Virus record (IMG/VR): IMGVR_UViG_3300009481_000097 | Span: 1-24,138 of that record | Length of the DNA stretch: 24,138 bases | Direction: 5' to 3' (one strand) | Source: a virus | Shown here: positions 629 to 21,800 of the stretch, one piece after another | How the letters are laid out: each line of letters opens with the position of its first letter | How positions within the stretch are numbered: the stretch's first letter is position 1 | Made by a program: the position numbers and the translations under genes | Notes under the pieces: model-generated | Seen by the model: only the letters and a program-made list of their open reading frames with translations | What the model was told of the DNA's origin: nothing | Databases searched by the model: none

Positions 629-642
629 GTACTGGGAGGTAC
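629..642 (+). promoter_or_regulatory. SD-in-loop start hairpin 1
   Basis: gtac-tgggag-gtac: a 4-bp stem presents the SD core GGGAG in a 6-nt loop, four bases before the ATG at 647. The same element recurs before 2042, 3428 and 4469, and with a different stem before 6108. Confidence 0.65.
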
Positions 643-646
643 ACAT

Positions 647-994
647 ATGACAAACCAACAAATAGCCGAACAGCTTACACAGTTGCTTTCAGCTCTTACA
701 GATGCTCCTGCAGAGGAAGCTCCTGTGAGTGAAGAAGCTCCTGCTAAAGCTAGTAAGGCAGAGAAGAAAACTGCTAATAAGGCACGATTCAAAGCTTTGA
801 ATGGTGCGGTTATTTCTGCAGGTCAAGCCTTCAAAAAAGGCGACACAGAAAAAGCTCAAGCACGTTTGCAAGAAGCTTTCACCCTTGCAAGTGAACCCAC
901 TGTGTGGGTTGCTCAACAAGCTAGAATCCTCAACAAGTGTGAGGAATTTGGTTTCGCTGTGAGCGATGAAGCTAAAACAGTTGTAGGCGTCTAA
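647..994 (+). CDS. Hypothetical protein, Lys/Ala-rich, 115 aa
   Basis: Not recognised. Residues 1-40 contain a low-complexity Glu/Ala/Pro stretch ('DAPAEEAPVSEEAPAKAS'), followed by a Lys/Ala-rich, strongly helical C-terminal half ('FKKGDTEKAQARLQEAFTLA') with one cysteine. An in-frame GTG at 581 exists, but the ATG at 647 is chosen because of the strong gggagg SD in hairpin context just upstream. A canonical intrinsic terminator follows at 1001, so this gene closes a transcription unit. The composition would suit a small abundant protein or nucleic-acid-associated helper, but that is a guess. Confidence 0.75.
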   Translation: MTNQQIAEQLTQLLSALTDAPAEEAPVSEEAPAKASKAEKKTANKARFKALNGAVISAGQAFKKGDTEKAQARLQEAFTLASEPTVWVAQQARILNKCEEFGFAVSDEAKTVVGV

Positions 995-1000
995 GCCTAT

Positions 1001-1028
1001 GGGAGGCTCCTTCGGGAGTCTCCCTTTT
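1001..1028 (+). terminator. Rho-independent terminator with UUCG loop
   Basis: gggaggctcc-ttcg-ggagtctccc followed by tttt. This is a 10-bp stem with one G-U wobble, capped by a C(UUCG)G tetraloop and followed directly by the T-run. It lies 6 bp after the stop of the 647 gene. It is the one textbook intrinsic terminator in the left half and contrasts with the long hairpins, which lack T-runs. Confidence 0.88.
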
Positions 1029-1030
1029 CT

Positions 1031-1084
1031 GTAGGGGACACAGGTACATGAGTTATTTCCCCTCTCTCCGCCTGTGTTTCCTAC
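1031..1084 (+). other. 14-bp leader stem-loop
   Basis: gtaggggacacagg (1031-1044) pairs with cctgtgtttcctac (1071-1084) along all 14 positions if two G-U wobbles are allowed, around a 26-nt loop. It starts 3 bp after the terminator and ends 37 bp before the ATG at 1122. The G-U pairs would only stabilise RNA, not a DNA cruciform, which points to a transcribed leader or small RNA. No clear promoter is visible between terminator and stem. Confidence 0.5.
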
Positions 1085-1121
1085 AGAGGGAACTACCCTT
1101 ATTGCCCCATTAGGAGGTCAC

Positions 1122-1370
1122 ATGACAACTGGTAATTTAACCACTGAGCAGGATTGCAGCCTTGCGTGTAATGTTTGCGCTGTAGCTCAAACTGTGCGTG
1201 TTTGCACAGTTCGTAAAGATAAGTACCTGCAGGGAATTGCGGTACAAGAAGCGTTTCCTGAGCCTGAGTTTAATAGCGCATACAGGGAGCAGATAATCGG
1301 GCTTCGCTCTGGTTATCACGTGTGTGATGACTGCTGGGATTCTGTTACAGCGTATGAGGAAGAAGAGTAA
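1122..1370 (+). CDS. Small Cys-rich (zinc-binding-like) protein, 82 aa
   Basis: This 82-residue protein has four separated cysteines near the N-terminus ('CSLACNVCAV', then 'VRVCTV') and a CDDC pair near the C-terminus ('YHVCDDCWDS'), the layout of a small zinc-binding fold. The C-terminus is acidic (EEEE). The start is set by taggaggtcac-ATG at 1122; an upstream in-frame GTG at 1074 lies inside the leader stem and has no SD. The stop overlaps the next start (TAATG). The cysteine pattern resembles small zinc-ribbon proteins common in phage early regions, but I cannot name a family. Confidence 0.75.
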   Translation: MTTGNLTTEQDCSLACNVCAVAQTVRVCTVRKDKYLQGIAVQEAFPEPEFNSAYREQIIGLRSGYHVCDDCWDSVTAYEEEE

Positions 1371-1507
1371 TGGATATACCTACGAGTTTTCACGTGTTAT
1401 ATAGCATCATTGCGTTTATGTATGTGATGCTGATTCTTGTGTGGGAGGATCAACAGGGTGTTCCCCGATGGAAGAGAATTGTGCGGAGGATACGTAATGG
1501 CTGTTGA
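1370..1507 (+). CDS. Small single-pass membrane protein, 45 aa
   Basis: A 45-codon frame starts at the A shared with the previous stop (TAATG) and ends inside the next gene. Residues 7-25 form one hydrophobic helix ('FHVLYSIIAFMYVMLILVW'), followed by a strongly basic tail ('RWKRIVRRIRNGC'). By the positive-inside rule the tail should be cytoplasmic. Purine-rich gaggaagaag precedes the ATG. The gene covers a stretch otherwise empty of coding and overlaps the next start by 11 nt, a typical coupled phage arrangement. A role at the host membrane is possible; nothing more specific can be seen. Confidence 0.6.
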   Translation: MDIPTSFHVLYSIIAFMYVMLILVWEDQQGVPRWKRIVRRIRNGC

Positions 1508-1676
1508 TTTTGAGGATTTCGGACAGAAGAAAAAGAAAACGCCTGCGTATAAGAAACCTACGTCATGGGTTAAATGCCTAGACTGTAGGGCTATTTACTC
1601 TGATCGTGTGTGGGAGTCCATGCACTTTTTGGACTGTCGGTTCTGTGGTGGAGCTAACTGGTCAGGCGATAAATAA
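1497..1676 (+). CDS. Small zinc-ribbon-like protein, 59 aa
   Basis: This 59-residue protein has a lysine-rich N-terminal segment ('GQKKKKTPAYKKP') and two CxxC knuckles, 'KCLDCRAIYS' and 'DCRFCGGANW', about 20 residues apart. That is the classical two-knuckle zinc ribbon. The start at 1497 is chosen for the gcggagga SD; a longer TTG-started frame from 1437 lacks one. It overlaps the end of the membrane-peptide gene. The basic tail plus zinc ribbon would suit nucleic-acid binding or interaction with a host protein, which is inference from architecture only. Confidence 0.75.
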   Translation: MAVDFEDFGQKKKKTPAYKKPTSWVKCLDCRAIYSDRVWESMHFLDCRFCGGANWSGDK

Positions 1677-1720
1677 CTCTTCTTCTCTCTCAATTTTAAT
1701 TGAGAGAGAGAAGAAGAGTT
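1675..1720 (+). repeat. Long hairpin C, polypyrimidine/polypurine
   Basis: aactcttcttctctctcaatt (1675-1695) pairs with a right arm (1698-1720) that is identical in complement except for two extra bases (ga). The apex is ATTTTAAT, matching ACTTTAGT of copies A and D but with a C-G pair changed to T-A, which keeps the pairing. It overlaps the stop of the upstream gene by two bases and ends 19 bp before the ATG at 1740; the SD of that gene (agaggag) lies just outside the stem. Confidence 0.78.
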
Positions 1721-1739
1721 AAGAGAGGAGAAAACCACC

Positions 1740-2027
1740 ATGATGTGTAGTAATTGCACTAATTATATGCCACCTGTTGACCTTCAGCAGGGTGAGTTCT
1801 GGGACGATGGTTCCGTGAACCAACAGCGAGATAATGCGCTACATGTGCATTTGACTGGTGGCTATGGCATGTTTGTGGATGATTGGGAGACTGGACCTTT
1901 GGAAGTTCTTATCTGCCATGATTGCGCAGTCAAGCTATTTAAGCTGTTTCCTGCGTTTCAGGAATTTGCTAATGGGGGTCACCCTACAGAAAATAAAGAC
2001 AACCCATGCTGTGAACACGCATGGTAA
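1740..2027 (+). CDS. Conserved phage protein, Cys-rich, 95 aa
   Basis: This protein has an N-terminal CSNC pair, a central 'VHLTGGYGMFVDDWE', an 'ICHDCAVKLFKLFP' segment and a C-terminal 'CCEHAW' preceded by an HP dipeptide. I have seen this ordered set of motifs in small phage proteins, especially from actinobacteriophages, always of unknown function. The Cys/His content suggests one or two metal sites. The frame opens ATGATG after agaggag, so the start could be 1740 or 1743. Long hairpin C sits directly upstream. The stop at 2025-2027 falls within the start hairpin of the next gene. Confidence 0.8.
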   Translation: MMCSNCTNYMPPVDLQQGEFWDDGSVNQQRDNALHVHLTGGYGMFVDDWETGPLEVLICHDCAVKLFKLFPAFQEFANGGHPTENKDNPCCEHAW

Positions 2028-2042
2028 TACTGGGAGGTATTA
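2025..2042 (+). promoter_or_regulatory. SD-in-loop start hairpin 2
   Basis: taatac-tgggag-gtatta: a 6-bp stem with the same TGGGAG loop as the GTAC-stem copies but a different stem, fully compensated. The stem includes the stop codon of the upstream gene (TAA, 2025-2027) on one side and the A of the ATG at 2042 on the other. Confidence 0.7.
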
Positions 2043-2695
2043 TGTACACAACTTTAGATTGGATAATTGTATGCGTCTTAGGCGGACTTGGTTTCGGCTT
2101 ATACATAGGATGCGTACTGCACTTTCGTGAGCTATGCGAAGTAAAAGAAATAGCTGATAATATAGCAGGCGATTACGAGGAGCTAACTGACAAATACCTA
2201 GAGCGTGAGGAACTTCTCATGGATTGTGCTGATGCTTTGATGGCTTGGCACGATGAGAAAGAGCGTGAGGAGTATAACGGTTGGATCAATCGTGAAACGT
2301 GGGCGTTTATGCTATGGCAAAGCGGTACATCTGCCATGTATGACCTTATGCGTGACTTGTCTGCGCAAATAGCTGTGAAGCAGGGCATCTTTGAGAACGA
2401 AGACGCTTTAGCAGGCTACATATCCAATAGGGGCATGACTAACATAGAAAAGCGCAACTTAGGCGCTGAGTATGTGAAGGAATGGTCGGATTACGCTAAC
2501 CAGCTTATCGTGGAGGTTGAAGAAGGGGATTTCTACATGGCGCTTCAAGACATTGGCTCCATGTGGCGTGTAGACCCTGAGTCCGTAGGTGATGCCCTTG
2601 AAGAGCATGTGCGTGAACGCCTCTTTGACGGCGAGAACATCGCTATCGTGAATGAGGAAGATTACTGTGACCTACTACAGGACGGAGGTTCCTGA
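2042..2695 (+). CDS. Membrane-anchored protein with NGW-x-NRETW domain, 217 aa
   Basis: Residues 6-28 form one transmembrane helix ('DWIIVCVLGGLGFGLYIGCV'), followed by a charged, coiled-coil-like stretch (about 30-75). A globular part opens with 'YNGWINRETWAFMLW'. The NGW-x-NxETW signature marks a small domain of unknown function widespread in phages (I believe DUF7249), usually found without a membrane anchor, so the fusion is noteworthy. The start at 2042 is preferred over the in-frame ATG at 2021 because gggagg lies just before it. The stop overlaps the next start (TGATG). Confidence 0.75.
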   Translation: MYTTLDWIIVCVLGGLGFGLYIGCVLHFRELCEVKEIADNIAGDYEELTDKYLEREELLMDCADALMAWHDEKEREEYNGWINRETWAFMLWQSGTSAMYDLMRDLSAQIAVKQGIFENEDALAGYISNRGMTNIEKRNLGAEYVKEWSDYANQLIVEVEEGDFYMALQDIGSMWRVDPESVGDALEEHVRERLFDGENIAIVNEEDYCDLLQDGGS

Positions 2696-3357
2696 TGAAT
2701 ATATTCTTCCTAGATAGGTGTCCACAGCAATCGGCTTACATGCAGTGTGATAAGCATGTACCTAAAATGTGTGTAGAAACTGTGCAAATGCTGGTGTCTG
2801 CTTTACGCAGGAATCAGTGGACAGATAATATGTTACCGCTTACGAAAGCAGGCAAGCCTCACAAGGGTGGTTATGCGTATCATCCTGCTACTGTTTGGGC
2901 TGGTGACAACTTTCATAACTTTGCGTGGTTGTTAGATCACGGCTTTGAGTTATGCAGGGAGTTTGAGTTCCGTTTTGAGAAAGAGCATTTCGCTATGTCT
3001 CAGATTGAACACATATTTGACACATTAAGCCTTGAACACTGGGGTCCATATGGCGTACATCACGAAATGATGATGACTGATGTCCCCCTGTGTATAGGTG
3101 AAGAAATGCAAGCAGAGTTCGGTGCTAGTTATGCACCATTACGTCATGCTGTGGAGTTCTATCGTGAGTTCTACAGACGTGACAAGGCTGAGTTTGCCAC
3201 GTGGGACAAAGGTCGTCCTACTCCAAATTGGTGGCAGGAAGAGCCTTCTTTCTCTCCCTTTCTTCTCTCAACTTTAGTTGAGAGAGAAGAAAGGGAGAGA
3301 GATGAAAAATCCAAAACCATTTTTGCCACATCTGGTTTCAGACATGAAGCCAATTAG
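2695..3357 (+). CDS. Phage 'MNIFFLDRCP' family protein, 220 aa
   Basis: The N-terminus 'MNIFFLDRCPQQSAYMQCDK' followed by 'HVPKMCVETVQMLVSA', a 'YHPATVWAGDNFHNFAWL' segment, and 'AVEFYREFYRRDKAEFATW' ending in 'PNWW' matches a family common in phages. It is sometimes annotated as pyrimidine-dimer glycosylase-like, but I know of no firm biochemistry. Homologues usually end soon after the P-x-WW motif. Here about 36 extra residues follow, and that extension is encoded by long hairpin D ('FSPFLLSTLVEREERERDEK' is translated hairpin) and beyond. The SD ggagg (2684-2688) and TGATG overlap set the start. Confidence 0.75.
   Translation: MNIFFLDRCPQQSAYMQCDKHVPKMCVETVQMLVSALRRNQWTDNMLPLTKAGKPHKGGYAYHPATVWAGDNFHNFAWLLDHGFELCREFEFRFEKEHFAMSQIEHIFDTLSLEHWGPYGVHHEMMMTDVPLCIGEEMQAEFGASYAPLRHAVEFYREFYRRDKAEFATWDKGRPTPNWWQEEPSFSPFLLSTLVEREERERDEKSKTIFATSGFRHEAN
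3251..3301 (+). repeat. Long hairpin D inside the 3' end of a CDS
   Basis: tctctccctttcttctctca... (3251-3273) pairs with a purine-rich right arm (3275-3301), with the same two-base ga excess in the right arm as copies A and C and the same ACTTTAGT apex. Unlike the others it lies within an open frame, adding a translated palindrome to the 220-aa protein. The right arm (aaagggagagag) directly precedes the ATG of a 36-codon frame at 3302, just as copy A precedes 161. Confidence 0.78.
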
Positions 3358-3412
3358 GAAAACAAGATATAAAAACTGCAGTTGCCCACAGGGTAAATGC
3401 CCAAAGAAATAG
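3302..3412 (+). CDS. Possible small Cys-motif peptide, 36 aa
   Basis: A 36-codon frame starts right after the purine arm of hairpin D (aagggagagag-ATG) and ends with the TAG that opens start hairpin 3. The peptide is basic and ends 'YKNCSCPQGKCPKK', a C-x-C-x5-C motif. It overlaps the last 56 nt of the 2695 gene in another frame and then covers a gap that would otherwise be empty. Its position (hairpin, SD, ATG) copies that of the 161 gene. It may be a real small gene whose leader hairpin has become fused to the upstream frame. The evidence is positional. Confidence 0.45.
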   Translation: MKNPKPFLPHLVSDMKPIRKTRYKNCSCPQGKCPKK

Positions 3413-3425
3413 TACTGGGAGGTAC
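3412..3425 (+). promoter_or_regulatory. SD-in-loop start hairpin 3
   Basis: gtac-tgggag-gtac, identical in stem and loop to copy 1, two bases before the ATG at 3428. Its first base is the last base of the stop codon of the 36-aa frame. Confidence 0.65.
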
Positions 3426-3427
3426 AT

Positions 3428-4147
3428 ATGATTAGTAATGAAATTGAAGTAAAGCTTGTGCTTGATCAAGCGCAATTGAAGGGTCCTACTGCTTTGCAAT
3501 TAGCGGAGATGTTTAAGCAAATAGCTGGCAATGAAGCATTTGGTAACGCTGTAGAAGAAGTGTTCCGTGATAGGTCAAGCTTTGTAAGTGACATTAAGGG
3601 ATTGATGGACGTTCCTGATAGGGGCGAACTTGATGACTACAAACAAGACTGGATTAACAGCCGAGATCTTGAGATTAATGTGGATAACCAGATTGAAACA
3701 TGGATAAACAATAGCGAATTGTACTATATGCCTGACACTGTGACTGACATACAGAATATTCTTGAAGAGTACAACTTTGAGCAGATGCAGGATGACCTTA
3801 ATCGTGATGAGGAAGCTATTGATGACCTAAAAGAGCGTGTACTTACTCTTGAGGGTTCAACAGAAGACCTTGAAGAAGTGGATAACTCGCAGGCTAATCG
3901 CTTACGAACACTTGAAGAGGACAACCTTAACGAGCGTTTGGAGAAGGTTGAAGAAGAAGCTGGTCTGGACTGGCGCACAGAATTCGGAGATCGTTTAGAC
4001 ACGATTGAAGACAAGCTAGGCACTGACTGGTCTGAAGAAGATAACCGTGAAATATCACGGCTTCAAGAACGAGTAGACAAGCTTGAAGAAATTAACAAGC
4101 GTCTATTCCACATCATTCACAACATACAAGGAGTGCCGTTAGTATGA
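3428..4147 (+). CDS. Acidic coiled-coil protein, 239 aa
   Basis: Not recognised. Residues 1-90 look globular; from about 105 to the end the sequence is highly charged with heptad-like spacing ('EEAIDDLKERVLTLEG', 'RLEKVEEEAGLDW', 'ISRLQERVDKLEEINKRL'), predicting a long coiled coil and oligomerisation. Two related segments, 'EEAGLDWRTEFGDRLDTIED' and 'KLGTDWSEEDNREISRLQER', suggest an internal repeat of about 30 residues. No enzyme motif is visible. The start is set by hairpin 3. A scaffold, DNA-mimic or decoy role is possible in view of the acidity, but is only a suggestion. Confidence 0.75.
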   Translation: MISNEIEVKLVLDQAQLKGPTALQLAEMFKQIAGNEAFGNAVEEVFRDRSSFVSDIKGLMDVPDRGELDDYKQDWINSRDLEINVDNQIETWINNSELYYMPDTVTDIQNILEEYNFEQMQDDLNRDEEAIDDLKERVLTLEGSTEDLEEVDNSQANRLRTLEEDNLNERLEKVEEEAGLDWRTEFGDRLDTIEDKLGTDWSEEDNREISRLQERVDKLEEINKRLFHIIHNIQGVPLV

Positions 4148-4367
4148 AGTACTTTGTACCGATAGCATTAGTTCGTTCTAAAGCGTGAACGTTCCCAGCG
4201 TTCAACGTCCTTCGGGATACGGCATGGGAGTGGTACTACCCACTGGCGCTAGTGATAGCAGATATGAGGTAGTTAAATGCAGGCAGAAACAGAGCATGCC
4301 AAGCCAAATGCCACATGATTTCCGCTTAGGGCAGGGTTCTCCTGTATATAACCTTATTTCGGGCGGA

Positions 4368-4442
4368 GGTAATTTAATTACCATGTGTAGGGTGCGGTCC
4401 CTTAGCCCTACACGTTTTAAACGTGTAACAATTCCGTTACAC
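4368..4442 (+). ncRNA. Tandem overlapping hairpins, switch-like leader
   Basis: Four hairpins lie in a row. H0 is GGTAAT-TTA-ATTACC (4368-4382). H1 is GTGTAGGG/CCCTACAC (4385-4392 with 4406-4413). H2 is CACGTT-TTA-AACGTG (4411-4425). H3 is GTGTAAC-aattcc-GTTACAC (4423-4442). H2 shares CAC with H1 and GTG with H3, so H2 cannot form together with either, whereas H1 and H3 can coexist. The cluster ends 9 bp before the start hairpin of the DUF932-like gene. Alternative exclusive folds are a hallmark of attenuators and riboswitches; any ligand or function is unknown. Confidence 0.5.
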
Positions 4443-4451
4443 TATATATAT

Positions 4452-4465
4452 GTACTGGGAGGTAC
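4452..4465 (+). promoter_or_regulatory. SD-in-loop start hairpin 4
   Basis: gtac-tgggag-gtac, as in copies 1 and 3, three bases before the ATG at 4469. It directly follows the tandem hairpin cluster. Confidence 0.65.
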
Positions 4466-4468
4466 TAA

Positions 4469-5530
4469 ATGAATATATTTGATAATGATGGGTCACACCC
4501 ATTAGACAATGCAGACTGGGATGACGAGCCTACAGTCATGGACGTTGACGTTCCTGATGTGGAAATCACACCAGTCGTAGAGCATATAAACACGTTTTCT
4601 ACTAATGAGAACAATGTTCATGTGCAAGCTGCGCAAGTTGGTGCTGACTTTACAGTTACGTATCAAGACGGTGGCTACTGGGATGACATTGCTGGTAGCT
4701 TTATCGTACCTCGTTACGATATTGGCGAATACAAAGGTGAACCTAAAGTAAGGTACATCATTAACGACGAAACAAGTGAAGTTGTGGGCAATCACTCTGG
4801 GCGATACCCAGTTCGTGATGGCTACACGCATAACTTTGAAGTGCTTGAGCAAGCATTTCCTAACTCATGTGTAAGCGTTGATATGTTTGACGGTGGCAAG
4901 CGAGTCCTAGTAACGCAAGACTTATCCGAAAGAGTGCAATTGCCTATGGGCGATGAAGTTGCTCGGTATGTTTACAGCGTTGCTTCGCTTGACGGAACCA
5001 AGCGTTCATATAGCGTTCCTAAAGCTTTGCGTATTAGTTGTGAAAACCAATTAGGTTTGCATCTAGCAATCTTTTCCGCAAAAGCGACTAGGAATCACGA
5101 CCAGAACCTATGGTTGCAAGCTGAAGTATTTGCGCAAGGTGATAGGCAGATGGAAGAATTGCTCACAATGGCAGATAGCTTTACTAGCCAGAGCATTACT
5201 GACTTTGAGTTTGAAAGACTCGTGAAGTCAATTCTACCTAGACCCCTAGAAAGCGACAGCACTAAAGCTAAGAACAAGTGGGAAAAGACACGTGTAGCTA
5301 TAGACGCTAACTGGAAGAAAGAAGCTAGCCTGTATGGAGATAAGAACTTATGGGTCGCTTACAATGCAGTTCAAGGCGCTGAGCAACACAAAGTCAATAT
5401 GGAGTTCCGTACAAAATCCGATAAGGGTTATGAACGTGGACGTGAGAAATCCTTTATGCGTAGCATGGAAGGCAAGACTCCTATAGCTGACGCTTGTGAA
5501 GCCTACTTGAGAGAGTTGGTGTTGGCATAA
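4469..5530 (+). CDS. DUF932-like phage/plasmid protein, 353 aa
   Basis: The layout matches the DUF932 family (also known as the phage/plasmid-like protein family TIGR03299). There is an acidic N-terminal region, then 'NFEVLEQAFPNSCVSVDMFD' and 'GGKRVLVTQDL', then 'YSVASLDGTKRSYSVPKALR' continuing into 'ISCENQL', and finally 'NLWVAYNAVQGAEQHKV' in the C-terminal third. Family members are found on phages and plasmids; their biochemical role is not settled, although the setting is often replication. Length is typical. The stop overlaps the next start by one base (TAATG). The unusual part is upstream: a hairpin cluster and start hairpin 4 suggest translational control. Confidence 0.72.
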   Translation: MNIFDNDGSHPLDNADWDDEPTVMDVDVPDVEITPVVEHINTFSTNENNVHVQAAQVGADFTVTYQDGGYWDDIAGSFIVPRYDIGEYKGEPKVRYIINDETSEVVGNHSGRYPVRDGYTHNFEVLEQAFPNSCVSVDMFDGGKRVLVTQDLSERVQLPMGDEVARYVYSVASLDGTKRSYSVPKALRISCENQLGLHLAIFSAKATRNHDQNLWLQAEVFAQGDRQMEELLTMADSFTSQSITDFEFERLVKSILPRPLESDSTKAKNKWEKTRVAIDANWKKEASLYGDKNLWVAYNAVQGAEQHKVNMEFRTKSDKGYERGREKSFMRSMEGKTPIADACEAYLRELVLA

Positions 5531-5949
5531 TGTGGGTATTTACAACTCAAGGTTATTTGTCCGTTGTGGACAAGGAAGAAAGCGGTGGTGAGTTGTGTGT
5601 CCGTTCACGTGACGATGAAGACCTTAAAGACTTGCAAGCGTATTTACAGCAAGCTTTGCGTAAAGGTGTTCCCATCATGCCAACTGGCAAAGCTGATTAT
5701 CAATACAGAATGTTTGTAGAGCGAGAGGACTTCATGAAGTACATGGTCCAGAAGATAAGGGAATTAAAGTATGACAACTTTAAAGACGCTTGTAGCTATA
5801 AAGAAGATTCTGTTTGGAGGCGCAAACCAGAGGCACTGTATGGCTTGGCTCGTATATGGGAAACCATTTGGGAGACTTGTAGCTATAACCGCTTTGGTGT
5901 GCCTAAAAGGGCGCAAGCTGATTGGGACCCTGAGAAGGAGTTCCTGTGA
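5530..5949 (+). CDS. Conserved 'MWVFTT' protein, 139 aa
   Basis: The N-terminus 'MWVFTTQGYLSVVDKEESGG', followed by 'LCVRSRDDEDLKDLQAYL', a 'GKADYQYRMFVEREDF' segment and 'LKYDNFKDAC', matches a small family found in phages and actinobacterial genomes whose members begin M-W-(I/V/L)-F-T-T and contain an 'xYxNFKxxV'-type motif. Function is unknown. It is coupled to the DUF932-like gene (TAATG) and overlaps the next small gene by four bases at its stop, so it sits inside an operon. There is no membrane segment or enzyme motif I can identify. Confidence 0.8.
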   Translation: MWVFTTQGYLSVVDKEESGGELCVRSRDDEDLKDLQAYLQQALRKGVPIMPTGKADYQYRMFVEREDFMKYMVQKIRELKYDNFKDACSYKEDSVWRRKPEALYGLARIWETIWETCSYNRFGVPKRAQADWDPEKEFL

Positions 5950-6098
5950 AATTCAAATTAGAGCATGGCAAGTTAAGCACTTACACCCACGAAGGGTGTA
6001 GGTGCAAGCCTTGCAAGGAAGCTAAACGTACTTACGAAGAAAATCGTAGGAATAAAATAAGAAAAGGCACATGGAGCAATCCTCGTGCGACTATCTAG
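5946..6098 (+). CDS. Small HG...C-R-C-x2-C protein, 50 aa
   Basis: GTG start overlapping the previous stop (GTGA). The peptide has 'EHGKLSTYTHEGCRCKPCKE', then 'AKRTYEENRRNKIRK'. The pattern H-G-x5-Y-x3-GCRC-x2-C-x2-A-x3-Y is shared with many tiny proteins of actinobacteriophages, and is the clearest pointer to that phage group here. The three cysteines plus histidine suggest one metal site, and the basic tail suggests nucleic-acid contact. Its TAG stop lies in the loop of start hairpin 5. Too short for common gene-length cut-offs, so easily missed. Confidence 0.7.
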   Translation: MKFKLEHGKLSTYTHEGCRCKPCKEAKRTYEENRRNKIRKGTWSNPRATI

Positions 6099-6106
6099 GA
6101 GGATAG
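6091..6106 (+). promoter_or_regulatory. SD-in-loop start hairpin 5
   Basis: ctatc-taggag-gatag: a 5-bp stem unlike the GTAC stems but fully paired, with the loop TAGGAG differing by one base from TGGGAG. The ATG at 6108 follows after one base. The stop codon of the upstream peptide is the first three bases of the loop. Confidence 0.68.
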
Positions 6107-6362: not shown

Positions 6363-6372
6363 TTTTATACTA

Positions 6373-6419
6373 GTACTTAGTACTCAAGACTCTTTAGAGA
6401 GTCTTGAGTTACTTAGTAC
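6373..6419 (+). repeat. Long hairpin E before replication genes
   Basis: A perfect 12-bp stem actcaagactct/agagtcttgagt (6382-6393 with 6398-6409) has a TTAG loop, extended outward by gtacttagta against ttacttagtac with one mismatch and one bulge. The apex CTTTAG is the same as in copies A and D, but the arms are not polypyrimidine/polypurine. It lies 11 bp before the ATG of the nuclease gene, whose SD agggagg is just outside. It marks the border between the small-gene block and the replication operon. Confidence 0.72.
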
Positions 6420-6430
6420 AGGGAGGAATA

Positions 6431-9952: not shown

Positions 9953-10286
9953 CTTTGCTTTCACGGTAGAAGGACGACCAGTTCCTAAAGGTCGTCCAAG
10001 AATGTCCAGAAAAGGTCGGGTGTATACGCCTGAAGCTACGAAAGAAGCTGAACAGCAGTACGTTGATAGCGTCAGCGATGCACCTACCTTTGAAGGCTCC
10101 GTGTATGTTGAATTAACATTCAGCAAAGAAAGCACAGATATAGTAATTACGTCCAAAGAGGACTGGAAAAGCCCTCTACGTGGAGATTTAGATAATTACA
10201 TTAAACTTGCCTTAGACGGTATACAAAAAGCAGGCATCATCGCTAACGACAAACAAGTCGTTGGCGTACATGCCGTAAAAATATAG
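9894..10286 (+). CDS. rusA: RusA-family Holliday junction resolvase, 130 aa
   Basis: RusA-type endonuclease that cuts four-way DNA junctions to resolve recombination or replication intermediates. 'VEGRPVPKGRPRMSRKGRVY' is the conserved N-terminal strand and basic loop. 'RGDLDNYIKLALDGI' supplies the metal ligands D98 and D100, and 'ANDKQVV' supplies D119 and K120, the residues known to be essential in RusA. Length is normal for the family. The ATG at 9894 follows agggag; an in-frame ATG at 9861 lacks an SD. The gene starts inside the primase gene, and its stop lies in the stem of the next start hairpin. Confidence 0.92.
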   Translation: MAQNKSNTSLKKPKGKQEDSFAFTVEGRPVPKGRPRMSRKGRVYTPEATKEAEQQYVDSVSDAPTFEGSVYVELTFSKESTDIVITSKEDWKSPLRGDLDNYIKLALDGIQKAGIIANDKQVVGVHAVKI

Positions 10287-12840: not shown

Positions 12841-15800
12841 CTATTTGTCCTTGAGAGACTCTCTTTCCATCCAACGTAACATATTATCTATTTCTTCTTG
12901 CTCATAACCTTGCGATTGCAGCGTTCGCTGTTGTTCTGCTTGAGTATTGGTCCTTAAGCCAATACCAGTAAAATAACTTAAATAAGTAGAAAGCGCACGA
13001 TCTTGATAGCGTTGTTCATCAGGCAACAACCTGCGAACATCACCCAAAATAGGCAACATGGTCATCAACATGTTCATGTCGTAATCCCTAACCATTATTT
13101 TTCCGTTTTGTGCTTGTTTGTAAATGCCTGCAGTTAATAACGCTTCAGTCATTCCCGAAATGTTAAACGCTGTAGGTACTTGAACAAAGCGCCCATCATA
13201 ATTGTAGCCTTTCCAGAAATTTCTACTTGTTCCACGTTCAAGCGGAGCTTTTAACAGTGGCGACAAGTTAGAAGCAAGAGTAGATAATCCGCCTACAGCT
13301 TTGTCTATGGGTGTTCCGCTGGTCGTAAAAAAGGGATCAATAGTTTCTGCTAGAACTTTTTGTGGCAAGTCAGGAAGCATCCACATTTTTTCACCCTTGT
13401 AAGACCAAGGGGTTTCAAATCCGCCTTGTCTTACAAAGTAATCTGGCACAGGCGCATTGTCTTTCTCCCCATATCCAGTAAATTCTTTTTTGAAATGTTC
13501 AACACGTGCAAACTTTTTAGGTTGTTTAAATACTTCTTCAGCCATCAAAGGCAAAGCACGCTTTGTCCAAACATAAAATGGGTAGATACGTTTAATTACG
13601 CCACGTTCAAACATACTTAAGTCATCGTAATCAAAATGATATTTAATCACGTTCTCAAATGCGTCATCTACGCTTCCGCCTTTTAAGATTGTGTCAAAGC
13701 CAAGAACACCACGCAAATAAGTTTCAGTTCCTATACCTATGTTCCTGTTTGCTTGCAAGAAAGCGTTACGAGAACTCATAGGGTTAACTTTGTTTATTGC
13801 TCGCAGGATACCTTTAGGAGATCCCAATTTTTCAGGCAATCTTTTTGCAACGTCAAACTCAATAGCTGCGCCACCAATTTGACCACCGCCCAGTATTCCA
13901 CCTTCACGCATTTGATCTATAATCTTCACGTGTTCAGGATTTACTTGAGATATGTTTTCCCAAATGCCACGTTTGCGCATACTGTTCTTTAATGATTGAG
14001 CGTACTTATCTAAACCTTCTCGTTGTGCAAATTGATATTGGCTTTTCCAATACGCATTCTGAAAACGTCTATACGTTTTCGGATTGCCTACACCAGCAAG
14101 ACTATTCATAAACACGCCTGAGAAAAAGTTACGTGAATGGAAGCCAGTTTTACCAATCAAATAACCTTTAACCAAGTTATGCACAGAATCATAAGTGCGC
14201 AAGAATTTTCTCATGCCACCATCTGCTTGCCATTTAATGACATCGCCCATTGAGTTCACAATTTCTTGCGGACCTTGAGAACCTACTCCATAAGGTCTGT
14301 AACCTGATGCAAAAGTGTTTTCAAAAGTTTTAACAAAATCATCAATTTTGTTTTCATCCCACTTGTTAATGTTCAACCATTTAGCATTAACGTAATCCTG
14401 TCCTTCTTTCCCAAACTTTTTAGCAGCTTGGTTCAAATCATTAGAAGTCGTAATAATTCTTTGAGCGTTAGCAATAAATTCCTCAGCAACTATTTGCATT
14501 TCTTCATTCAACAAAGCCACAGATTCACGCAAGGCAGGTATTAAAGCTTCAGTTTCATTACCTAATTGCCCTGCAGTATTCACAATGCTTGGCGCACCAA
14601 CGTACATGTCATCCTTGATTACATCTTGTGGCAATTGTCTAGTTATTTTTTCTATTAACTCTTCAGCCTTAGCAGCTCCTTCTAACTTAACCTTTAACTG
14701 AGACACTTCTATTTGTAACGCTTCAACCTTCTTAGGAACCTTGTATTCTCTAACAAGATTGCCAGCAGCAGTCTGCTTAGTATCCCAACTCATGCCTAAA
14801 GTACTTATCTCGTTTTCTAAACGAATTATAGATTGAGTGTATGCGTCAATCGCCATATAAGCTTTGTCTTGATTCTGCAACATTGCTTTCCTTTGGTTGC
14901 TCACAAGAGCTTCCAAAGGATTATCAGGATTCTGCGCCCTTGCTTGCGCCCAAGCATCTGGCGCTTTTCTTCCTGCCAAATTACGTTCGTCCGCTAAAAT
15001 CGTCTTTGCGTATTGTTCGTATTCATCCACAAATTTTTGACCAGTAATAACAGGATTTTCTTTAAAGTTCCGAACACTATACGCTAAACCTTCAGCAGTA
15101 CGAGTAAGGTTCTCATTAGGATTAACAACGCTTACAGGGTTAGCTAGCAAAACGTTAGCCCAAGTAGCATCCGCAGAAGCCATAGCACTTCCTGTAGGTG
15201 TAATCATTGCATCAATTACGTTACCCATAGAGTCTATTTTAGGTGCGTAAACAGCTTCGTTGTGATAAAAAGCCATAGCGCCATACCCATCAGCAGCTAA
15301 ACCTTTTTTCATGCTTTCTAACATTTTAGGATAAAGCAAAGCTTCAGGTATTATTTGAGCGTCACCAAAAGATTCCATTTCGTCAATTAAATTTGCTCGC
15401 AAAGCAGGATAAGTGTCAATTGGGTTACCACTTGTAGACATTTCCGTTGCACCAAGTTTGCTTTTTTGAACTTCAGCTAATACTCTGTCAAACTTTGTAG
15501 AGTCAGAAGATATGCGTTTCCCAGTTTTAGGATCAAACATTGCAAATGGTTTCTTTGCGCTTAAACCTCCTATTTGTTCAGATCCAACGGCTCGCATTTT
15601 TTGCAAATGCGACATAATTGAATCAGCTTGAAAAGCAGGTATACCCATATCGTGTGGAGACACTTGACCTATCACGCCTGCATTTAAATAACTGGTTAAT
15701 TGAGTGTAAGTAGGAGCGCTCCCTGCTGCTCTACCAGCAGAAACTTCAGGCATAAAATCTAAAGGCTTATTGTTCTTTATAGTTGAAGGCGAAACGTTAA

Positions 15801-18800
15801 ATGCTCCCTGATACTCGTTAAAATGCATTTTTAATATGTCGTCAATTTCTTCCCTAGTAGAAGTTTTTTTCAACTTAGCAACATCAATACCCATTTCTTC
15901 AAAAATCATTCTTCGTTGTTCTGGGGTTCCATGCTGCAATTTATTTACAATTTCTTTACGCAATTGTTTAGGATCTATACCTTGTAATTGGTGAACAGGA
16001 ACATCCAAAATAGTTCCGCCAGTGTATTCATTAGCAGGCATCATGTAATGATGTGTGCTATTTCCCGCCATACTGTATTGACCACCTACAAGATTTTTTA
16101 CAATAGGAGAATCTAAAGCTATTTGTTGATTAACAAATCCTAAGTTCTTGTCAGAGTTTAAAGCGTTAAAAAAAGCTAAATCTTTTTTAATAGACATTTC
16201 GCTTGCGCTTTGTAAGCGAATTAATCCCTGCCTATGAGTTTCTAACTTGTTCATAACATCGCTTACAGCCCAATTACGCAAATCCTCAATTTCTTTATTC
16301 GTAAATGGTGTTCCACCGCTTCGTACTTCAGCTATACGAGCCACATAAGAAGAAATAAATTCTTGATTTTCTAAATAAAAATCACTTGAATGCGACGCAA
16401 TAGCGTTTTCGGCGACAATATTGTCAATGTCTAAAAGATTCCAATGATCTCCACTCGCAGTATAGTTGTCTAACGTTTGAGCAAATTCAACTGCTGAACG
16501 CCTGTCGTTTTTAAAACGTATATTAGAAATAGTTTCTTTCGGACCTTGATCCGACAAATGCCTAAGAGGATCTAAACCCCTGAGTGAACCAAAATCTGAT
16601 TCTTCAACAATATCAGTAGCGCCTTTTATGTTTCTATAAAGACCTTCTGTCATGTAAGCAGCACTAGTAACAGGGGCGACATCAAAGGCAGCTTCACCAG
16701 CGCCTCTTCTTGTCGCACCCATAGGCGCAACAGCACTTAAAAACGATATTTCTTCTTCGCTTAATTGCGCTCCTTTAGCTCTTCCTAAATAAATTTGTTC
16801 CCAAGGAGCAGCGTTACCGCCCTGCAACTCTAAATACCCAATAAAGCTTAATTTCTCATTAAATGAAAGAATATCCCACTCAGCAATATTTCTGTTATCT
16901 AAAGCCTTCATTGTTTCAAGCGTTTCAGCCCCCAAATTCAAACGAGCATTTTTGTGATTAACAGTTTCACTTCTGTCAAAAGCTTTCAAAAAGTCTTCTT
17001 GATCCTTGTTCAAAGACACGTCAGAAAGTTTTCTTTCCGTGTCTCCTTGACGCAAGTAATTAATTAACTCATCGTAAGTATCGCCGTCTTCCCTGTATGC
17101 GTATTCCAAATTCGTAAGCTCATGGTCACGCCAAGCCTTATTACGATTAGGGGTATAAGCGCCTCCGTCAATTTGTTGATAACTAGTAAACAAACGAGCA
17201 GCACCTTTAACATTTGGATCTCCTTTAATGCTGTCAACAATTTGAGAATCTAATTGATGATGAATGTCACGAAACGCATCAAAGCCTTCTTCAGTCAAAG
17301 GATTGTAAGGATCTGCCTTCATAAGGTACTCGGCTGCAGATTGAGTCTGATGCACTGGAGGCAAACCAAGAATCTTTATGCTATCACTTCCACGTGGAGC
17401 GTCAACAGAAAAAATCGTAGCATCAGTCATTCCTTGAGGTGAATACGTAGCATCTGCTTGTGTAGTGTTAATCCACAAACTATCTAACCAAGAACTTCTT
17501 GGAACGTTTTGCGTACCACTAAAGTCTTTGGGGCGAACACCCGACATGTTGCTAGTTCCTTTGCCATAGCCATGCTGAACGTAAAAACTCATACGTTCTT
17601 GAACAGCAGCAGCAGAACTAGGAACTTTATCTATAGCAGGAGTTCCATTAGCTACTTTTGCTATAAAGTAACGACTAACAGAATTTGCTGTTTGCTCATC
17701 AACTTCAGGCAAAGCACCATAAACATTTACATTAATGTTTAATTCCTCTCTAGCTTCTCGCATAGCAGCTTCAATAGGTGTTTCGCCTTCATCCATACCG
17801 CCTTTAGCGTGACTCCATTTAACCCCACCAAACGGTTCGCCAGTAGAAGGAGTATCAGTAGGCATACGCATAACAACGTTTCCGTCAGCGTCTACGACAA
17901 CGACACCATATCTAATTGATCTACCATCTGGAGTTACAGTATCTGTCATAGAACCTGACCACAAAGCGTTATCTACAGCTTCATCCACATCCCACGTATA
18001 TTTATCAGGCGTCAATCCTGCGATGCCGTCTTTGACTTTATTTCTTCTATTTGTCTCTACCCAATCTTCATAATATCCACGCCCAGAAGGAGGTTCATTT
18101 CCAAGCGATAACCCATCACCCAATTCCTCTACATAATCTCCCTGTTCCCATTCAGGAAGAGTGTAATCTTCCAAATCTGCAAGAGCTTCAGAATCATTGT
18201 TCAAATAAGCTTCGTCATATTTTTTAGCAAAGTTTTTCTCAGTAAAGTCAGGGTATTCGTCAGGTCGCATCAATACGGTATCAGCAGCATCTTCTTCAAA
18301 TAAACTTTTTTGAAATTGAATGTCATCAGCACGTTTTATATTCGGTGTGTAACCAAAACTCATTGCTTCTAAAACGTCTGGGTTTGATTTTGACCAACGC
18401 TCAAATTCTTTAAGCACAGAAACGTCTCTTAAAATTCCTTCCCTGTCTGCCGTATTTAGCTTTGTTCCATTTCTAACTTCACGTATTGCATCTCGCACAG
18501 AAAACGATTTAATTGCTTGCGTTTCTCCGTCATTGCTTATCCAAGACGGCAAACCCTCTTTTTGAGATGTTCTTTGCTGAGCTGTATGCGCAGGACTAAT
18601 AATATTTTTGACAGTTTCTTCATCAAAATTAGAAGCAAGTTTTGCTTCCATAAGTTCTTTGCCTTCTAACAAAGGAGGAGTTTCTTCTAAATGATTTCCT
18701 AAAACTTCCTGCAAGTTTTTAGTTCTTACTTCAAGCCAATCAGTAAACATTTCCACATCATTAGCGGTAGCTTCAGGTCCTAAAGTTTGTTTAACGAAAC

Positions 18801-21800
18801 CTTCCCACCCTCCGTAACCGCTTCGCATTTCTGCAATTGTTTCAAATTGGATTCCAAGTTCAAACCAAAAAGTTTCATTTTCTTGCATTTCGCTTCTGAA
18901 CATTGTCTGCCATTTACTTGGCTGATTTTCAAACTCTTCACTAAAGAAAGTTCCCATAGAACCATCAGCATTTTCTAATTCATCTACAGCACGCCAATCA
19001 AATCCCTGCGTATTTGCTTTAGATAAACCTTGCGCTCTGTAATGAAAAGAAGCACCATTGTCTATACGCACAACAGCACCAGTTAGCATGTCAATTCCGA
19101 TATTGTCAGCGTCATAGCCGACAACATCGGAATTGGATACCAAAATATCCATTAACATTTGTTCTTTGATTCTTTGACTAAACGGAACTACTTCATTAAC
19201 ATTCGCTTGCGCCTGATAACGAGCTAATTCTTCAGGGCTGCTAGCAATAGCATGAGTACCATTTTTGAATTTAATTACGCTTACATCAGATATAGGGGGG
19301 CTTCCTTGAGGGAAAGCAAGTCCGTCACTGAATTTAGCTATTTTCCATTGCCCATTTTGCAACATGTCGCCAACCATAAAATCGCCAGCGTTAGCTTGCT
19401 GACGTAAAAAGTCAGGTGCAAAACTATCAGTTGAACTTTGCCAAGAATTAGGAGCAGCTTTAGAAGTTTGCCTACCTGTAGCTAAAGTATCCATTCGTCT
19501 ATACAAAGCATCGGCAAGCACTTCGCTTTGGACTCTGTTCCTAGCTACGTCATCTATAGTGTGACCGTATTCTGTGAACACAGCAGCTTCATCGCCTTGT
19601 TCTAAATTAGGGTCATAGCGTTTAATGTAAAAATCTAATTCATCGCCTTCTATGTTTGTGCGAATATGAAAACCTACGTTAGTGCCACCCTGTACCGCTT
19701 GTATGCGATTATTCAACCTAGCAACAGGGTTAACGCCTTTGCCTTTAGCAGCAGCACTAGCTTGTATAACCCGACCATTTTTTAAAATGGTCGTAACATC
19801 AGCTAAATTATTTGTAGACAATGCACCCATTTGCATTTGCCACATATCACGAGCTTCTTTTAAGTTAATAAAATCTTGAAGACCTTTTTCTACAACAACT
19901 TGCCCAACCCCATCTGTGTCTATCTGAATTTTCATAGGAGGGATAACAGGGTTTTCTTCTAACGCAAATTGATAAATAGCCAACTGATCGTATAAATCAT
20001 TTTCTATTTGACTAATAGCGCTTTGTATCTCAGAACCAGATTCAATAGGGCGAACACGCAAGTCATTTCCCATCGTTCCATAAAAAGTTAAAATAGCTTC
20101 ACGAAACTCTGGATCAGTTCTCAAAGTATCTGAAGTGCGCAAATCCATAGGACTACTAGCATTCTTTGCAATGCCCTCGTCTACCTTGCGTAAAATAGTT
20201 GCTTGAGCTTCCTCAACGTTTGCAACTGTAGGCAATTTACCAAGAATCTCTTCCTGTATTCCTTCCCTACCTATAATTTGTTCTATTTCAGTTAAAACAT
20301 TTTGAGCTTTAGCGTTACTTTTTTCTATAGTCGCAAGCATGTTATCAAATTGAGCAACTGGATTAACAACAAGATTGTCCATCGTTGCACCAATTTGCAC
20401 AGTCATTGATACGTTTGTGCCAAAAGCCGTTTGGTCCAAGTTGTCCAAAACAGAAACCATTTTCATCAAGTCAGTATTGACCTGTACGTTATTGCGAGCC
20501 GATCCATCAGGCATAGTCATTTGCCATTGAAAACCATTAGGTGTTTCATCTGTAACAGTGCCTACAAACCCAGAACTTTTAACCAAACCATCAAAAGCTT
20601 CACCAATACCATTTTCGTCAACAACATCCGCAAGCTGAGCACTAACAAATTCATCTACGTTCCTATGAATAGAAGGATCAAATTTGCCAATTACCTGACG
20701 GTAAACATCAAAGTTTTCTTGACCCCCCACAATAGAAGATATTATTTGCTTATTTTTCATAAGCTCTCGTGTGCCTGTTCGCAATGATTGCGCATACAAC
20801 CTGATCCTATTGCCGTCACCTTTAGCTTGAACCACGAGTTCCTGTATGCGATTCATCTTCTTTTGCAAAGGCATTATTTCTTTAAAATCAGTTGAAGCCA
20901 ACCTAGCCAACTCAATACGAGTATTCTCAGATTGCTTGTTTAAATCAATAATTGTTGTTTCTAAACCATCTACAATTTCTTCCTGCTTAATTTGTTTCTC
21001 AACGTATTCATTTAATTTAAATTCTGCCTCTTCGTATTCTTTTATTCGCAATGCGTGTGCTTCCATAGCATCATCAAGTTGTTGCTTTTTTAAAGCGTAA
21101 TTAGAATTATCCCAAGCGACATTAGAAATTGATCCTTCGCCAGAAGCTGCAAGATCTCCTGCCAATTGATCTAATTTTTGTTGCCCATTATTAATAGACC
21201 TACTAAGACCATGCAATTTAAAAGTAAGCTTGTCCATCTCTTGCGTAGGGAAAGTAGTTAACGACGCAATTCTGTCAACAAACACGCCTTTACGTTTTAA
21301 TACTTCTTCTGTAAAAACATCGCCTGTCCTTATAGATAAACCACCTATATAAGCAGACAACGCACGACTTATATTGTCATCAAACAATTCGTAACCAATT
21401 TGCAGATCTTCCATCACAAAAGCTATTTGTTTTTCAATAGAAGGAGCCTTACCGCTTGCTACCCTGTTGCTCAAAACCCAAGCATGACCATCAGGCAAGC
21501 TAGAACCTACGTCAAACAACTCATATCCCATGAACCCCTTAGTAACGCCCTCGTTACCCAATTCCCATATAGCTGTTGCTTTCGTTTTCCCTTTAGCAAC
21601 TTTCTTAGCTACAAGTTCGTCAAAAGCATTATCAGAAATAAGAGAACGTTTAAGTTCATGTTGTGTCAAAGCATCCGTATTAGATATGCGACCCTTCTTT
21701 AAACCAAAAGTCCCTGAACGTCTCTGAATATATTCACGAGCTTCTTCATTTAAAATACGTGGAACATAAAAAGGAACCTCGCCAACAAATTCGTAACCAG

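Follow-up and report, generated by a model that had tools for sequence, protein, structure and literature searches.

Small hairpins at early gene starts

The subject of this report is a class of small hairpins that carry GGAG, the core of the Shine-Dalgarno (SD) sequence, in their loops just ahead of early genes in an uncultured phage, and whose stems change in sequence among relatives while remaining paired. We examined them first of all in the window, by which we mean the whole of a 24,138-base IMG/VR virus record (IMGVR_UViG_3300009481_000097), a fragment of a little-known, podovirus-like lineage of uncultured phages with genomes of roughly 40 kb. Read from left to right, the window carries small early genes, an exonuclease (PD-(D/E)XK), a DnaB-like helicase, an archaeo-eukaryotic-type primase and RusA, followed by a sigma region 4-like protein and a DUF1599-like protein; an amidase endolysin and a 3590-aa protein are encoded on the minus strand. 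A relative, G001, encodes a portal, capsid, terminase and internal-virion-type protein, the first two of which match those of the uncultured podovirus MW202803 at 43% and 41% identity, respectively.

The initial annotation had reported five hairpins with the loop T(G/A)GGAG at the starts 647, 2042, 3428, 4469 and 6108, and we recovered all five exactly as given, with no hairpin of this kind on the minus strand of the window. A sixth hairpin, with a different loop, precedes the start at 2695 (Table 1). A different candidate for a sixth, ATATA-GGGGG-TATAT at 10281 before a GTG start, had also been proposed; we rejected it, because the 13 other orthologous starts listed all lack its hairpin.

Table 1. 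SD hairpins of the window and the early genes that follow them
Feature	Position	Strand	Remark
SD hairpin 1, GTAC-TGGGAG-GTAC	629..642	+	4 nt before ATG 647
Early gene, 115 aa	647..994	+	downstream of hairpin 1
SD hairpin 2, TAATAC-TGGGAG-GTATTA	2025..2042	+	ends on the A of ATG 2042
Early gene, 217 aa, DUF7249	2042..2695	+	downstream of hairpin 2
Extra SD hairpin, CAGGA-CGGAGGT-TCCTG	2678..2694	+	abuts ATG 2695, within end of upstream gene
Early gene, 220 aa, PHROG 624 DNA-binding, weak pyrimidine-dimer glycosylase match	2695..3357	+	downstream of extra hairpin
SD hairpin 3, GTAC-TGGGAG-GTAC	3412..3425	+	before ATG 3428
Early gene, 239 aa	3428..4147	+	downstream of hairpin 3
SD hairpin 4, GTAC-TGGGAG-GTAC	4452..4465	+	before ATG 4469
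Early gene, 353 aa, DUF932	4469..5530	+	downstream of hairpin 4; present in 11/11 near-complete genomes
SD hairpin 5, CTATC-TAGGAG-GATAG	6091..6106	+	before ATG 6108
Early gene, 84 aa	6108..6362	+	downstream of hairpin 5

Six of the 15 GGAG starts in the window therefore have a perfect stem of at least 4 bp, a number reached in 0 of 5000 draws when 5' flanks were taken from relatives (mean 0.67) and in 29 of 5000 when flanks were permuted internally (mean 2.08), the latter null being higher because GTAC recurs three times. Within the window alone, any apparent covariation rests on three stem types, and it is the relatives that supply the proof.

Excess, position and stem change among relatives

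Relatives were gathered by a helicase search blind to the hairpins, which gave 80 loci, so that the family sample comprised 81 sources assembled irrespective of the motif: the window, 10 near-complete records and 70 loci. Several records were truncated at 40,000 bases, and gene starts were called with our own heuristic caller. We counted starts with GGAG 3–12 nt upstream, removing near-identical sites, and scored as a hairpin any perfect Watson-Crick stem of at least 4 bp closing a loop of 4–8 nt that holds GGAG; for the null, the 14 nt 5' of GGAG were exchanged among starts. Hairpins were found at 68 of the 312 non-redundant GGAG starts of the family, as compared to 15.1±3.6 after permutation (maximum 31 in 500 permutations), and stems of at least 5 bp at 35, as compared to 4.0±2.1. 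The enrichment at starts over shuffled sequence that the initial annotation had called for is thus seen in relatives, rather than stems paired no better than shuffled upstream regions.

This excess is not general to phages. Random viral contigs from IMG/VR, picked through an arbitrary 14-mer, had hairpins at 12 of 255 starts, as compared to a null of 12.2±3.3 (80 listed of 102 stretches). A further set of 111 starts (14 hairpins vs 6.3) was not used as a control because two family members (L089 and L105) were still in it. Nine phages (L084, L085, L087, L096, L100, L106, L108, L113 and L114) have in common a conserved start hairpin, GCGTACTGGGAGGTACG(A/T)ATG, and lack clear homologues of the window (one weak match, in L087); the near-complete, unrelated records that share GCGTACTGGGAGGTACG (G015–G017) show no general excess, with 5 hairpins at 75 starts vs 3.7. 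As neither the random contigs nor these records show an excess, we reject the hairpin class as a universal phage feature.

The association with starts could also be seen without gene calling. Both strands of 11 genomes together contain 46 perfect 4-bp stems closing an NNGGAG hexaloop, 29 of which have an ATG at -3 to +8, while nine other tetramers, on an equal count, gave 8–46 stems with 0–19 such ATGs (GAAG 19/46, GAGG 11/25, AGGA 7/20, CTCC 5/14, GGCG 4/10, GGTG 3/19, GTGG 2/22, GAGC 1/10 and GGAC 0/8). GAGG and AGGA are themselves SD-like, and the 19 GAAG cases are spread across both strands and include orthologous repeats.

Within the family, the hairpins are concentrated in the early module. 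We compared early and late genes in 11 genomes, the window and 10 of the 13 longest relatives, reading the classes from gene order and strand, not from transcripts, and taking as early those genes that lie on the helicase strand 5' of the exonuclease; the remaining three long relatives (G003, G011 and G012) were listed by start only, with hairpins at 2/21, 4/20 and 1/11. Early genes had hairpins at 37 of 92 non-redundant starts, vs a null of 5.7±2.3 (maximum 15), as compared to 1 of 19 on the helicase strand from the exonuclease onwards and 2 of 49 (null 2.9) among late genes on the opposite strand, giving an early/late contrast of Fisher p 6.7e-9. With redundant sites retained, the counts were 50/112, 2/30 and 2/77, respectively, and one of the two exonuclease-onwards hairpins, in G005, lies at the end of its record and may be early if that record is circularly permuted. 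Stricter redundancy cuts left early hairpins at 28/76 and 18/52 starts. The SD itself is GGAGGT in 54% of early starts and 2% of late ones. Hairpins are commoner after a gap of more than 40 nt (28/57) than at overlapping or close starts (7/32), while late starts after such a gap have one in only 1 of 20 cases. Hairpins also lie ahead of the exonuclease in G020, a distant relative (helicase 28%, portal 49%), and MW202803 has a hairpin at 1 of 10 starts. The exonuclease leader of the window (about 6366–6420) contains a separate hairpin flanked by TACTnAGTA repeats, with resembling repeats or hairpins in relatives (G010:20392–20438 and G009:35978–36028), and this element is perhaps an early/middle boundary signal.

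The threefold GTAC of the window, together with the null of 2.08 that it produces, is what one would expect if a strong ribosome-binding cassette had been duplicated within genomes, with the palindrome as a passenger or a chance feature. Permuting flanks inside each genome gave 11.7±2.9 early hairpins with a maximum of 20, as compared to the 37 observed; random contigs are at their null; and, as described below, orthologous starts bear different yet paired stems. These results already contradict cassette duplication at the level of the whole family, and we consider it the least credible of the explanations weighed here.

The stems of orthologous genes differ widely. Orthologues of the DUF932 gene (4469) carry the stems CATGTAC, ACACA, TGTAC, CGCA, GCAC and GTAC; those of gene 647 carry GCAAC/GTTGC, CGAC/GTCG, GTAC and GCAC/GTGC; those of gene 2042 carry TAATAC, AATAC/GTATT, GTAC/GTAC, CGGA/TCCG and CTTG/CAAG; and at gene 3428, GAAC/GTTC in G001 and G002 takes the place of the window's GTAC. 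Hairpins are present at 11 of 30 GGAG starts in the DUF932 group and 5 of 12 in the gene-647 group, and the CTATC/GATAG stem of gene 6108 is missing from its orthologues in G001 and G002. As orthologues occur both with and without a hairpin, the element evidently turns over.

Covariation was first assessed in early sites selected solely for the SD GGAGGT and AC at -4,-3 from GGAG, GGAGGT being present at 50 of the 92 non-redundant early starts and AC at 16 of these. Pair 3 is Watson-Crick in 15 of the 16 and G·U in the other, and pair 4 is Watson-Crick in 16/16 through all four combinations (G-C 6, A-T 4, C-G 4, T-A 2), while pairs 5 and 6 are at chance level (6/16 and 5/16). Outer pairs 3 and 4 thus covary through every Watson-Crick type, and the commonest form of the element has four stem pairs and an NNGGAG hexaloop. 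A formal test used 42 plus-strand ACNNGGAGGT start sites, representing 19 distinct 14-mers, after one minus-strand, in-gene site was excluded from the 43 near starts. Among the 19, 93.4% of cells are paired, with 22 double-sided changes, and the covariation score of 0.575 vs 0.115 was reached by 0 of 500 shuffles, with every slid register scoring far lower. Failing rows were retained, including three that are not fully paired (L005:151, L005:4651 and L029:1508) and one with a G·U (L053:1256). The hexaloop in register 2,0 accounts for 17 of the 37 early hairpins, as compared to 0.95 expected, and 11 registers are in use; because registers differ, a two-dimensional complementarity map is diffuse over all 312 starts, and it is sharper in the early set alone.

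Taken at the level of sequence comparison, these data indicate that the fold is under selection, its letters varying among relatives while pairing is kept. The proposal of the initial annotation that selection acts on RNA structure, rather than on a copied SD string, thus gains support from both covariation and stem swaps among orthologues. As perfect pairing yields DNA dyads as well, the same sites could be DNA palindromes that bind a transcription factor or nicking protein at early starts, their overlap with the SD being incidental, and mismatch types (one G·U, one A·C-type) are too few to separate RNA from DNA. Against this, the only constant part is the asymmetric SD loop, in gene sense and mostly 0–6 nt from the start; the outer stem takes each of the four pair types, which leaves no conserved half-site; and a T facing the last G of GGAG across the loop, an enriched combination, can pair in RNA only. 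This last enrichment is soft evidence, as it was noticed afterwards and non-hairpin GGAGGT sites also favor T. A constant, asymmetric SD loop at a fixed position, enclosed by stems that are free to vary, points to an element that acts as RNA, and we think a DNA role very unlikely.

Possible roles and comparison with known systems

The stem mostly ends 0–6 nt, typically 2–4 nt, before the start codon, which it overlaps in 8 of 68 cases, and its median predicted energy is -2.5 kcal/mol. In a 40-nt context, the lowest-energy ViennaRNA fold retains the local hairpin at 3428, 4469 and 6108. When flanks are exchanged, the predicted openness of GGAG falls from 0.69 to 0.48 (p 5e-6), with no change at the start codon, a pattern that favors display of the SD. 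On the evidence of sequence evolution, pairing is conserved amid stem change, the SD is kept in the loop and the element is nearly confined to the early module, and we lean, by a modest degree, towards reading the hairpins as a structured, early-class ribosome-binding site that would display the SD. A weak stem, typically of 4 bp, would close a loop of 5–7 nt exposing GGAG; by forming in the mRNA it may prevent capture of the SD by other pairings, the loop would present GGAG to the 16S anti-SD of the 30S subunit, and the stem could then melt after this contact, a step proposed because the GU of the extended SD GGAGGU lies in the 3' arm. The outcome would be strong, context-independent initiation on early mRNAs as they compete with those of the host.

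Several points weigh against SD display. The ViennaRNA minimum free energy fold is a different structure at 647 and 2695 and is ambiguous at 2042; part of the gain in accessibility follows by construction, since any loop that surrounds GGAG will open it; and 55 of the 92 early GGAG starts lack a hairpin. A mere translation booster might also be expected to suit the abundant late structural genes, which do not use the hairpin, and the preference for one geometry (17 vs 0.95 for the register 2,0 hexaloop) is tighter than simple display needs.

Early-only use combined with a preferred hexaloop register is also the strongest argument for a trans-acting factor, in which case the hairpins would be operators for a GGA-binding regulator (a host CsrA/Rsm-type or unknown phage protein) or a RegB-like endoribonuclease, switching early mRNAs off or on as a class. 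The geometry of the hairpins is closest to that of CsrA sites: as in CsrA/RsmE sites, GGA occupies hexaloop positions 3–5, AC/GU pairs close the loop, and the stem is weak, of about four pairs, and overlaps the SD. GTAC-TGGGAG-GTAC is very similar in geometry to the CsrA consensus from systematic evolution of ligands by exponential enrichment (SELEX), RUACARGGAUGU, which excerpts of its source describe as a hexaloop closed by AC/GU with, in most cases, no more than four pairs (PMC7652899). The A that is invariant at loop position 1 in that selection is not conserved in the phage hairpins, being found in just 2 of 17 early hexaloops, while T is found in 14. Hexaloops favor this T, which could form a wobble pair with the last G (18/23 vs 59/200), but it is also frequent in non-hairpin GGAGGT sites (11/19). 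Likenesses to T4 RegB sites are GGAG in the SDs of early genes and a GGA predicted by ViennaRNA, at 3428, 4469 and 6108, to be open with its fourth G constrained, matching the preference of RegB for an open GGA with the fourth G held, as given in part of PMC3014915; unlike in T4, the consensus GG*AGRAYARAA is not seen, as the downstream RAYARAA is absent and GGAG is mostly followed by GT and the 3' stem arm. In the accounts of T4 RegB sites consulted in excerpt, they are not described as a covarying hairpin class. Nor is the register fixed, given the 11 in use.

Phage-borne CsrA is on record (PMC7366521, in excerpt), and we looked for phage-encoded partners by Pfam, finding no CsrA (PF02599; 0/16 phage or related records), RegB (PF10715; 0/14 records at E<=1, a search that a divergent protein could escape and in which some records are incomplete) or RegA (0/14 records). 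CsrA/RsmE hairpins are known regulator targets, a role that for the phage hairpins is conjectural. Overall, we view control by a trans-acting factor as a tentative alternative and the main rival to SD display. A composite of the two, an early-class translational regulon in which the pre-formed SD-display hairpin marks early mRNAs and a phage or host factor, a CsrA-like binder or RegB-like nuclease unrecognizable by sequence, first favors and then silences them, seems to us somewhat doubtful; if true, it would amount to a translational early-to-late switch encoded as a portable, shape-recognized ribosome-binding site.

The initial annotation had suggested a related or convergent system in the start-associated sequences (SAS) of Cluster K mycobacteriophages, and this comparison holds for position and SD content and fails for sequence and covariation. 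Both are repeated SD-containing elements (AGGAG/GGGAG in the SAS) immediately upstream of a subset of non-structural genes and recur in each genome. In the portions of PMC3203893 and PMC12699233 that treat it, the SAS is a constant 13-mer, GGGATAGGAGCCC, with at most 2 deviations; in the SAS of Pixie and Adephagia we likewise found an essentially constant 13-mer, whose potential 3-bp GGG/CCC stem is not extended and mostly not compensated. The phage hairpins studied here, unlike the SAS, vary in sequence and keep pairing, and the window elements are GTAC-TGGGAG-GTAC and variants, not GGGATAGGAGCCC, so that we reject SAS membership. The same sources describe the extended SAS (ESAS) as a 17-bp imperfect inverted repeat with a genome-wide consensus, just upstream of about half of SAS, and its authors, in the part of PMC3203893 concerned, doubted that the repeats act as RNA hairpins.

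Long inverted repeats also lie near early starts of the phages studied here. The window has four long, near-perfect intergenic hairpins (112–149, 487–538, 1674–1721 and 3249–3302) with arms of 18–22 bp, a pyrimidine-rich 5' arm and the center TCTCAACTTTAGTTGAGA or similar; in two of the four, the 3' arm runs into the SD of the next gene, possibly hiding it. Long hairpins of unrelated sequence are present in relatives (17 in G007, seven of them within 14886–15256; 15 in G005; 9 in G010), with no obvious T-run, and an Rfam search of the long hairpins returned weak matches to eukaryotic miRNA models only, all below gathering scores.

Start-proximal structure is usually read as inhibitory, and the T4 e, soc and 49 hairpins, which likewise place RNA structure at phage translation starts, are described in the excerpts available as inhibitory, with the SD or start codon sequestered in a helix. 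The minimal hairpins of the window and its relatives, unlike these, hold the SD core in the loop and as a rule leave the start codon outside the stem, and so appear to show rather than hide the SD. Searches of an open-access library that lacks most subscription journals, judged from listings apart from the papers cited, turned up no account of phage hairpins that covary as a class and carry the SD in the loop. This lineage appears to have evolved such a hairpin and repeatedly rewritten its sequence, in early genes only. It provides a clean natural setting in which to ask whether an SD displayed in a loop increases initiation or gates it, as well as something new to compare with the unexplained SAS of mycobacteriophages and a small template for structured ribosome-binding sites.

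Host clues and neighboring proteins

A helicase search of genome contigs, made for a clue to the host, gave no match, and a DUF932 scan of viral contigs also returned none. A capsid search of genome contigs gave one match, L241, an 18-kb contig 71% identical in capsid and placed in a metagenome-assembled genome labeled Euryarchaeota; it has hairpins at 0 of 13 starts. Misbinning of a phage contig is the probable explanation; otherwise L241 could point to the host.

Among the early products of the window, the protein encoded at 5530–5946 belongs to a widespread family (MWxFTxDGFFSxV) with no Pfam match. Its AlphaFold2 model (predicted local distance difference test score, pLDDT, 77.5) has a confident N-terminal alpha/beta domain, and for this fold Foldseek gave no match to the PDB at E<=0.001 and VIA-align a best Z of 5.6, a level that VIA-align's own notes call common. 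On the minus strand, the 3590-aa protein (12841–23613) takes up nearly half of the window and has a NUDIX domain at residues 1901–1995; its counterpart in G001 is 3121 aa long.

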